Below, piece after piece: positions 15,671 to 18,068 of a stretch of 64,000 nucleotides of DNA. This DNA comes from Uliginosibacterium aquaticum (GTDB lineage: Bacteria > Pseudomonadota > Gammaproteobacteria > Burkholderiales > Rhodocyclaceae), in assembly GCF_012972705.2 (NCBI RefSeq), contig NZ_JABCSC020000002.1, forward strand, positions 310,001 to 374,000, given 5' to 3'. Every line of letters begins with the position of its first letter. Within the stretch, counting starts at the first letter, position 1. The notes beneath the pieces were generated by a model. That model did not search any database and was not told the DNA's origin. It worked only from the letters and a program-made list of their open reading frames with translations. Position numbers and translations under genes: made by a program.

Positions 15671-16795
15671 TCAAGCCTCCAGCAGGATGCGCAACATGCG
15701 GCGCAGCGGCTCGGCCGCGCCCCACAGCAACTGGTCGCCAACAGTGAAGGCTGCAAGGTATTCGCCGCCCATCGCCATCTTGTGGAGGCGACCAACGGGC
15801 ACATGCAGATGACCGGTCACGGCGTTCGGGGCCAGTTCACGCTCGCTGCGCTCACGCTCGTTCGGAATCACGCGCACCCAGTCATTGGCACCGGCAAGAA
15901 TTTCATGAATCTCATCCAGCGGTACATCCTGACGCAGCTTGATGGTCAGCGCCTGGCTATGGCAACGCATCGCACCGATACGCACGCACAGGCCATCAAT
16001 GGGCACCGAGCCCGCCGTACGGAACGCCGGCTTGCCGAGGATCTTGTTGCACTCGGCTCCGCCCTTCCACTCTTCCTTGCTCTGGCCGTTCTCATACGGC
16101 ACATCGATCCAAGGAATCAGGCTGCCGGCGAGCGGCACGCCACGGAAGTTCTGCACCGGCATGGCTGGCGAGCGCATGGTTTCAGCAACCTTGCGATCGA
16201 TATCCAAGATGGCAGAAGCCGGATCGGCCAGCAGATCAGCGACAGAAGCGTGAATCGAACCCATCTGCGCAATCAGCTCGCGCATGTTCTGTGCGCCAGC
16301 GCCCGACGCGGCCTGATAGGTCATCGAGGTCGCCCACTCGATCATGTCGTTCTGGAACAGGCCGCCCAGCGCCATCAGCATCAGGCTGACCGTACAGTTG
16401 CCGCCGACATAGTTCTTGACGCCCTTCGAGAGACCATCCTGGATCACGTTCTTGTTGACCGGATCGAGAATGATGATCGCGTCATCCTTCATGCGCAGAC
16501 TCGAAGCCGCGTCAATCCAGTAACCATTCCAGCCAGCCGCGCGCAGTTGCGGGAAGACTTCGTTGGTGTAGTCGCCACCCTGACAGGTGATGATCACATC
16601 CATCTTCGCCAGATCGGCGATGGACTTGGCATCCTTCAGAGGCGCGCCGCCGCTCTCAGCCGGGCCAGCGCCGCCTGCATTCGAAGTGGTGAAAAACACC
16701 GGCTCGATCAGGGCGAAATCGTTTTCCTCGCGCATGCGTTGCATGAGCACCGAGCCGACCATACCGCGCCAGCCGACAATACCAACTTTCTTCAT
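15671..16795 (-). CDS. asd: aspartate-semialdehyde dehydrogenase
   Basis: A 374-residue Asd of the Gram-negative type, which reduces aspartyl phosphate to aspartate semialdehyde, the branch point to lysine/diaminopimelate, methionine and threonine. The start is ATG 16795, giving [17 protein letters not shown] with its NADP-binding GWRGMVG; AGAGG stands just upstream. The nucleophilic Cys is in [11 protein letters not shown] and the substrate-binding His/Arg region is [16 protein letters not shown]. An in-frame ATG at 16861 would add 22 residues but lies in the leader hairpin and is not used. A Thr-rich leader peptide ends 81 bases upstream, so attenuation by threonine (and perhaps lysine) is likely. 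Confidence 0.97.
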
Positions 16796-16829
16796 GTGAA
16801 TTACCTCTGCCAGAACTGCCTCCGCTCGC

Positions 16830-16893
16830 TTTAGCCTGTCTCCGCCACCGCGGAGACACATAGCGGCGTGACAGGGCTAAACCGTGGTGGTTT
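16830..16893 (-). promoter_or_regulatory. putative asd attenuator: alternative RNA hairpins after the leader peptide
   Basis: Three pairings are possible in the minus-strand RNA. Hairpin A is a perfect 9-bp stem (16837-16845 with 16850-16858, 4-base loop). Stem B pairs 16830-16840 with 16870-16881 (11 bp, one bulge) and includes the leader stop codon. Stem C pairs the Thr codons (16882-16890) with 16845-16853 (8 of 9). A competes with both B and C, as expected of an attenuator. No U-run follows A, so termination would have to be Rho-dependent or the control translational. Confidence 0.6.
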
Positions 16894-16993
16894 TTTTGGT
16901 CGTGGTGGTGACGGTCGTGACAACGGACACGCGAGCGGAAGCCTCTGCAGCGCAGAAAGCTTCCAGCCCGAATGTATTTTGTGTCCGTTGCAT
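16877..16993 (-). CDS. threonine-rich leader peptide of asd
   Basis: A 38-codon ORF read from ATG 16993 to TAG 16877-16879, starting 14 bases after the leuB stop, with GGAA about 6 bases before the ATG. It begins MQRTQNTFGLEAF and ends VVTTVTTTTKKTTTV; the last 13 residues before the final Val hold nine Thr and two Lys. Threonine and lysine are end products of the pathway that asd feeds. This is the classical design of a leader peptide, as in thrL of enterics, where stalling at scarce Thr-tRNA changes downstream RNA folding. The family is not one I recognise by sequence; the role is inferred from composition, position and the competing hairpins that follow. Confidence 0.8.
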   Translation of the reverse strand: MQRTQNTFGLEAFCAAEASARVSVVTTVTTTTKKTTTV

Positions 16994-17006
16994 CACGTTT
17001 CCGTTC

Positions 17007-18068
17007 TTACAGGGCTGCGATGACCGCGTCGCCCATTTCGCGCGTACCGACGCGCTTCGTGCCTTCTTCCCAGATGTCGCCGGTGCGCAGGCCAGCGGCC
17101 AGCACCTTCTTCACGGCGGCTTCGATGCGGACAGCAGCCGCTTCGTTATTGCCACTGTAACGCAGCATCATGGCTGCGGACAAGATCGTTGCCAGCGGAT
17201 TGGCCACGCCCTTGCCGGCGATGTCCGGTGCAGAACCGTGACACGGCTCGTACATACCCTTGTTGTTCTGATCCAGCGAAGCGGACGGCAGCATGCCAAT
17301 GGAGCCGGTCAGCATCGAAGCTTCGTCGGAAAGGATGTCGCCGAACATGTTGCCGGTGACGACCACGTCGAACTGCTTCGGTGCGCGCACCAGCTGCATC
17401 GCGCAGTTGTCGACCAGCATGTGGGAGAGCTCGACATCCGGATACTCGGACGAGATTTCGATCATCACGTCGCGCCACAGCTGGGTGGTTTCCAGCACGT
17501 TCATCTTGTCGACCGAACACAGCTTCTTGTTGCGCTTCTGAGCGGACTTGAAGGCGACATGGCCGATGCGGCGGATTTCGTCTTCGTTGTAGATCATGGT
17601 GTTGCGGCCAACGCGCTTGCCATCTTCTACAGCGATGCCACGCGGCTCACCGAAATAGATGTCACCGGTCAGTTCGCGCACGATCAGGATATCCAGACCC
17701 GACACGATTTCCGGCTTCAGCGAAGAAGCGTTGGCCAGTTCCGGGTACAGCACGGCCGGGCGCAGGTTGGCGAACAGGTTCAGATCCTTGCGGATGCCCA
17801 GCAGGCCACGTTCCGGGCGCTGCGGACGCGGCAGCACATCCCACTTCGGGCCGCCCACGGCGCCGAGCAGCACGGCGTCAGCCGCGCGCGCCAGCTTCTG
17901 GGTGGCTTCCGGGTAAGGCGAGCCGGTGGAGTCCACCGCACAGCCGCCCAGCTCGGCGTATTCCATTTCCATCTTCAGGCCGTCGCTCTTCAGCGCATCC
18001 AGCACACGCACCGCTTCAGCGATGATTTCGACACCAATGCCGTCGCCCGGCAGAACACAGATCTTCAT
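17007..18068 (-). CDS. leuB: 3-isopropylmalate dehydrogenase
   Basis: A 353-residue LeuB, which oxidatively decarboxylates 3-isopropylmalate in leucine synthesis. The N-terminus [15 protein letters not shown] is typical; [13 protein letters not shown] and the NAD-binding region ending [19 protein letters not shown] are present, as are the metal-binding Asp residues in LVDNCAMQL and [11 protein letters not shown]. It is third in leuC-leuD-leuB, separated from leuD by 61 bases that contain a hairpin. The asd leader follows. Confidence 0.97.

Follow-up and report, generated by a model that had tools for sequence, protein, structure and literature searches.

A Thr/Lys-rich leader ORF conserved upstream of asd, a probable ribosome-mediated attenuator with counterparts in Burkholderiaceae

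A short open reading frame (ORF) with a C-terminus rich in threonine and lysine lies between leuB and asd, and it most probably represents a ribosome-mediated attenuator of asd that senses charged tRNA-Thr and tRNA-Lys. Asd makes a branch-point intermediate for lysine, threonine, methionine and isoleucine as well as for cell-wall diaminopimelate. Threonine, lysine and isoleucine are end products of the Asd pathway, and the control residues of the leaders described here match them. Two features expected of an attenuator were found, namely a conserved short ORF before a biosynthetic gene and codons for the product amino acids near its stop; a third, a U-tract intrinsic terminator before the gene, was not found in the genus concerned. 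The window, meaning the whole stretch of 64,000 nucleotides that was analysed, contains the following elements at this locus.

17007..18068, minus strand: leuB, the upstream gene on the same strand (NCBIfam TIGR00169 leuB, 505 bits, cut-off 353)
16999..17002, minus strand: GGAA, a putative Shine-Dalgarno (SD)-like site of the leader ORF, as read in the sequence
16877..16993, minus strand: leader ORF with Thr/Lys-rich C-terminus, 38 codons plus TAG, kept in 9 distinct sequences from two genera
16880..16924, minus strand: control run VVTTVTTTTKKTTTV with 9 Thr and 2 Lys codons, C-rich and G-poor
16804..16808, minus strand: AGAGG, a putative SD-like site of asd, as read in the sequence
15671..16795, minus strand: asd, aspartate-semialdehyde dehydrogenase, the putative regulated gene (NCBIfam TIGR01745 asd_gamma, 611 bits, cut-off 403)

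The gene names asd and leuB rest on NCBIfam equivalog models, each matched above its cut-off. A sequence-only reading of this DNA had described a 38-codon minus-strand ORF between the two genes, a GGAA site before its start and nine threonine and two lysine codons near its stop, and all three descriptions hold: the ORF runs from an ATG at 16993 to a TAG stop ending at 16877 (translation MQRTQNTFGLEAFCAAEASARVSVVTTVTTTTKKTTTV), the GGAA lies 5 nt 5' of the ATG, and the nine Thr and two Lys fall within the final 15 codons, the tail being VVTTVTTTTKKTTTV. By contrast, the distance of 14 bases that it gave between leuB and the leader start has to be corrected to 13 nt, counted from the leuB stop (ending at 17007) to the leader ATG. 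An in-frame GTG stands one codon before this ATG. The leader stop is separated from the asd ATG (16795) by 81 nt, and the whole leuB-asd gap is 211 nt in length. A promoter scan of the window found no promoter near the leader, so the leader would sit inside a leu-asd transcript.

The composition of the tail was compared with shuffled sequence and with other ORFs. Thr and Thr plus Lys were scored within the last 15 residues of any ORF after the 211-nt gap had been shuffled 5000 times with its dinucleotides preserved; no shuffle reached 9 Thr (best 6), and none reached 11 Thr plus Lys (best 7). The leader also ranks first among the 762 window ORFs of 20-60 aa, the runner-up having 5 Thr, and its core codon pattern ACNACNAARAARACNACN (degenerate) has a single occurrence in the 4.09-Mb genome. 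Over loci of at least 3 kb, a Thr/Lys/Ile criterion selected 101 of 11,172 ORFs of 18-70 aa, comprising 90 asd leaders, 3 further copies of the window leader and 8 unrelated ORFs. Leaders of like kind were not found before lysC and hom in the same genome, and R1, a model of the window genus, had no second significant site in the genome (next best E 1.9).

Conservation was examined in a family search, in which 289 of 297 genomes had a match to asd. The window's genus (g1) has eight genomes, seven of which were read (L001, L082-L087), with G185, where the asd match is in two pieces, left out; L002, L003 and L004 duplicate L086, L088 and L089 and were counted once. Conservation of the frame in close relatives had been set earlier as a check on the leader, and it was passed, as an open leader ORF with a Thr/Lys tail is kept in 7/7 g1 genomes read and in both genomes of the sister genus g13 (L088, L089). 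In g13, no leuB was found upstream of the leader while the leader still precedes asd, indicating that the leader ORF belongs to asd. Spacing from the stop to asd is 81-84 nt in g1, and 89 and 91 nt in g13. The nine distinct g1 and g13 peptides, 37-43 residues in length, diverge in their N-terminal halves and have the Thr/Lys tail in common, and the indels within the Thr/Lys run of the DNA alignment are whole codons. A fixed criterion detected no leader in 62 genomes from other genera of the family (59 distinct genomes with 61 loci, L090-L110 and L111-L150, plus L151, L152 and L169 from the order sample), indicating that most relatives manage without it. Run over 212 loci, this criterion gave 57 positives, named and unnamed copies together, and the stop-to-asd spacing was 80-86 nt in 52 of the 57 rows, rows L004 and L089 among these really being 91 nt (GTG start).

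Several leuB-asd gaps carry features of their own. The 329-nt gap of L017 (an Azonexus MAG) is mostly taken up by a head-to-tail GGATCAA array (32 copies of the 7-mer), and a shorter repeat of another unit is found in the gap of L015. In eight Azonexus/Dechloromonas-type loci (L005, L010, L011, L013, L018, L107, L109 and L110), the roughly 50-nt gap preceding asd contains GYGCGTTAA, and variants of this motif precede asd in L008 and L111. The gap of L002, a MAG titled Moraxellaceae, is letter-identical to that of the g1 genome G209 (L086), and its title thus looks wrong.

Residue and codon usage in the control region were then compared between the two leader groups. Within the last 18 residues of the g1 and g13 leaders, the fraction of Thr is 0.49 and that of Lys 0.12, with Val also at 12%, while 61 distinct tails from Burkholderiaceae have Thr at 0.29, Ile at 0.23 and Lys at 0.16; Met occurs only 3 times across these 70 tails. 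In the nine g1 and g13 leaders, AAA encodes 21 of 25 lysines, compared with 18 of 127 for five neighbouring genes (Fisher p 1.5e-11, with the codons of relatives treated as independent). Likewise, 72 distinct control regions, mostly from Burkholderiaceae, use AAA for 179/200 lysines compared with 10/122 in six Burkholderiaceae asd genes, and ATT for 156/270 isoleucines compared with 23/117 in the same six genes. This AAA/ATT preference may raise sensitivity, or may merely keep the control run unstructured. Lysine as a second sensed residue, which had earlier only been suggested, is supported by its conservation together with the strong AAA bias, and the proposal that charged tRNA-Thr, and perhaps tRNA-Lys, sets asd expression is supported at the level of sensing by the conserved Thr/Lys frame and the same bias. 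An ORF kept across two genera at 37-43 residues could instead encode a functional small protein, with the Thr-rich tail as a protein feature and not a sensor. We consider this very improbable because the N-terminal parts differ freely, the tail keeps its composition but not its order, codon choice is skewed to the locally rare AAA and ATT, and all 34 fetched matches of the Burkholderiaceae model described below adjoin a gene for the same amino acids.

Leaders of this kind extend beyond the family. In Burkholderia, Paraburkholderia, Caballeronia and Trinickia, the leuB-asd gap contains a Thr/Ile/Lys ORF such as MALISLISPVLKLHGNTARAGAHAIVITKTITTKTIIKR. A covariance model, R2, covering the Burkholderiaceae control end (the 3' part of the leader) and the spacer in 22 sequences, matched 154 of 249 genomes of family f31, which its named relatives suggest to be Burkholderiaceae, in 9 of 25 genera. 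Among the genomes listed there was one site per genome, except for G829 with two contigs. With strict filters, R2 matched 5 of 399 genomes in the order sample, all from f31, the window's own type not being matched by this model. All 34 R2 loci fetched (L224-L257), 4 of them from genomes already counted, have the site directly 5' of asd together with a Thr/Lys/Ile ORF. Parvibium and one genome of another family (G309, L167) provide one leader case each, in versions of their own; Parvibium lacunae (L020) has a leuB-asd gap of 1448 nt, yet its Thr/Ile/Lys leader lies 75 nt before asd (match at 2501). In the class sample, with an asd match in 73 of 274 genomes, none of 49 loci (L268-L316) had a leader with at least 8 Thr/Lys/Ile. 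An ORF in L288 with 7 Thr/Lys/Ile, 186 nt from asd, was not credited as a leader.

When the leader label is mapped on a tree of 64 dereplicated Asd proteins, of which 22 have a leader, it needs 4 changes versus 18.7 in shuffles, suggesting four lineages that arose by several gains, or by one gain with repeated loss. R1 was applied to 17 loci and matched over its full length at the corresponding position in g13 (E 0.005-0.03), G309 (0.046) and L034 (0.27), values that are weak because the opposite strand of R1's own type scores 0.014-0.04; no match was obtained in L020, L027, L068 and L210. A common origin of the window-genus leaders and the others is possible.

The Burkholderiaceae leaders share a further feature at their start. 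All 86 leader loci (61 distinct tails; for example L068, L034 and L258-L265) have a -10-like element (TGTATATT, TGTAGACT and the like) upstream of an in-frame ATG, ending 6 (73 loci), 7 (4) or 8 (9) nt before it. In 84/86 loci (14 length classes, many being near relatives), the first ATG past this element shares its frame with the leader stop, and the remaining two have an in-frame ATG 6-8 nt past the element. A -10-like element so placed predicts a transcript starting at the leader AUG, that is, a leaderless mRNA. This prediction is weakened by promoter scans of L068 and L034, which found no promoter, only the -10-like element without a -35 match. The consistent choice of the first ATG in Burkholderiaceae also bears on the idea that the ORF is a chance frame lying across an RNA or DNA element that is conserved for other reasons. 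The strong hairpins at this place would suit such an element, but a frame that the shuffles never reproduced in its tail, and that the first ATG opens in nearly every Burkholderiaceae locus, makes this scarcely credible.

RNA structure within the gap was assessed by folding, alignment and arm swaps. The leuB-to-asd RNA folds at -92 kcal/mol (z -5.2), beating 200/200 shuffles, and the following arms were delineated.

16981..16991, minus strand: 5' arm of hairpin H0 (overlaps the leader ATG)
16944..16956, minus strand: inner hairpin of H0 (TCTGC/GCAGA), with 35/35 cells paired and 2/5 pairs changed on both sides
16920..16930, minus strand: 3' arm of hairpin H0 (immediately precedes the Thr run and touches it)
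16862..16876, minus strand: arm A, immediately past the leader stop codon
16850..16858, minus strand: arm B (TGTCTCCGC), invariant in 7 g1 sequences
16835..16845, minus strand: arm C (GCGGAGACAGG), which can pair with B or A
16817..16825, minus strand: arm D (GCGGAGGCA), which can pair with B or A, without a U-tract after it; B:D has 63/63 cells paired

H0 covaries within the genus. Across 7 related g1 sequences, 88.6% of its cells are paired and 10 cells are changed on both sides (0/500 shuffles as high in either case), its covariation score is matched by 1/500 shuffles, its 6 pairs with changes on both sides by 21/500 and its pair types by 497/500, with the caveat stated by the tool that relatedness alone can exceed shuffles. 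When H0 arms were swapped among g1 sequences, the native arms ranked first in 5/7, second in the window and third in L083, while the native combination was not favoured in g13 (rank 5 and 2 of 9). In the window the H0 3' arm could also form 12 bp with a pre-asd segment (GCTTCCGCTCGC with GCGAGCGGAGGC), but this pairing was dropped, as by eye only L001 and L082 keep it.

Mutually exclusive foldings exist between the leader and asd, and covariation does not prove which of them is used. The g1 consensus fold is A:D enclosing B:C, with a score matched by 99/500 shuffles. The B:D pairing in g1 shows one-sided changes only and A:C has 95% of its cells paired, 500/500 shuffles being as high for each, such that support for arms A-D is mostly invariance, without significant covariation. 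In Burkholderiaceae, the B and D cores are invariant in alignments of 30 and 22 sequences. Arm swaps of A:C weakly favour the native arms (28 better and 11 worse of 39 in Burkholderiaceae, 6 and 1 of 7 in g1), and those of A:D and B:D showed no native preference. Masking arm A, as by a ribosome at the stop codon, led to B:D formation in L084, L086 and L088 (two of three masks), while B:C, and not B:D, persisted in L001, L083, L087 and mostly in L085. Two Burkholderiaceae candidates were left out of the model. One is a hairpin at the leader stop codon, which some sequences form stably and others lack; the other is a pairing of the leader start with a post-stop segment, which would use bases upstream of the predicted transcript start.

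In the scheme that we infer from these elements, the ribosome would translate the leader close behind RNA polymerase. A shortage of charged tRNA-Thr or tRNA-Lys would stall it within the Thr/Lys run, before it gets to arm A, and arm A would be left free to pair as A:C or, in g1, as A:D enclosing B:C. If threonine and lysine were plentiful, it would reach the stop codon. The footprint of a terminating ribosome extends some 10 nt beyond the stop, so arm A would be covered at its start and the other folding, B:D or B:C with D free, would form. The stalled state would permit asd expression, and the stop-codon state would lower it, most likely via a premature end of transcription. H0, in which the leader start region pairs with the segment before the Thr run, would probably limit re-initiation on the leader.

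The route by which such a decision could reach asd was judged from the sequence downstream of the arms. No U-tract was found after arm D in g1, with at most 4 T in 8 nt (7 distinct sequences), and the window, L068 and L034, when scanned for terminators, had none at this place. Broken runs that reach 5 T follow arm D in 5 of 46 distinct Burkholderiaceae sequences (15 of 86 loci), and a broken 5-T stretch was also seen by eye in L088 of g13. Predicted exposure of the asd SD at four ribosome positions in 26 sequences showed no consistent shift, as was the case for g13 with the GTG start. The lack of both a U-tract and a consistent shift in SD exposure favours Rho-dependent or U-poor termination, by which the output would be an early end of transcription.

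Alternatively, the folds could act on translation by hiding or freeing the asd ribosome-binding site. In the Burkholderiaceae consensus fold, the asd SD (GGGU) has arm A (GCCC) as its partner in 30/30 sequences, and the lack of a clear terminator would fit as well, but we judge this route unlikely given that the 4-bp A:SD pairing hardly varies, that no SD partner was found by eye in g1, and that the predicted SD exposure shifts inconsistently. In a different version of early termination, the Thr run would itself be a Rho loading region, hidden by the stalled ribosome so that asd is transcribed, and exposed on release so that Rho ends transcription before asd. The control run, which this version takes to be unstructured, is C-rich and G-poor: C minus G is 0.30 in the 50-nt segment 16914-16865, a value that 0.03% of same-strand windows in the 64 kb attain, and the mean C minus G of control regions is 0.19 in g1 and 0.16 in Burkholderiaceae. 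The missing U-tract in g1 points the same way, as do leader peptides of Streptomyces lividans with hairpins lacking a U-rich tail, as described in PMC8079986. On the other hand, the Thr codons (ACN) by themselves bring the C excess, without any need for selection, the 81 nt between stop and asd are short for Rho, and the conserved arms A-D would be left unexplained, so that we regard such direct Rho gating as conceivable but somewhat doubtful.

The preferred reading thus stays with attenuation through sensing of charged tRNA-Thr and tRNA-Lys. We further propose, only tentatively, a new class of Thr+Lys or Thr+Ile+Lys leader regulators dedicated to asd and without a U-tract terminator, in which a ribosome on the C-rich run might gate Rho or a U-poor stop, the Burkholderiaceae leader being read from a leaderless mRNA at its own AUG. 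If true, a leader reading Thr and Lys (and Ile in Burkholderiaceae) together would show how a single RNA can adjust a branch enzyme to several of its end products. Such a leader occurs in 154 of 249 genomes of one family and has no Rfam match. The missing U-tract would also allow a clean test of Rho-dependent versus other outputs.

A close known system is thrL, the attenuator of the E. coli thr operon (Rfam Thr_leader), a Thr/Ile-rich leader ORF before thrABC. Like thrL, the leader described here is a short ORF with a Thr-rich run by its stop and precedes an aspartate-family gene, and derepression on starvation would be expected. Unlike thrL, its target is asd and not thrABC, Lys codons are added, a U-tract terminator is lacking, and its place in the window is between leuB and asd, all three on one strand. 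No Rfam family reached its gathering cut-off in the window or in any of 8 loci, 7 of which have a leader, and in 16780-17020 no family, Thr_leader included, matched at E up to 10. In tnaC/Rho control, the signal is a nascent-chain ligand; similarly, a stalled ribosome could shield a Rho site here, but the signal would be uncharged tRNA at repeated codons instead of a nascent-chain ligand. No asd leader peptide was found in the open-access literature searched, a scope outside which most subscription papers lie, and the main text of PMC2965389 mentions neither asd nor threonine. Leader peptides without obvious terminators have been described in Actinobacteria (PMC1262725), and several leaders of S. 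lividans are reported to be leaderless (PMC8079986). None of eight S. lividans leaders described in the latter precedes asd, and the thrL there precedes thrS. As far as these texts go (PMC8079986, PMC1262725), the actinobacterial leaders belong to another phylum and to other genes, but they share with the present ones an amino-acid-rich ORF, hairpins without a U-rich tail and, for several in S. lividans as predicted for Burkholderiaceae, leaderless reading, and they are the nearest precedents for leader peptides that are both U-less and leaderless.
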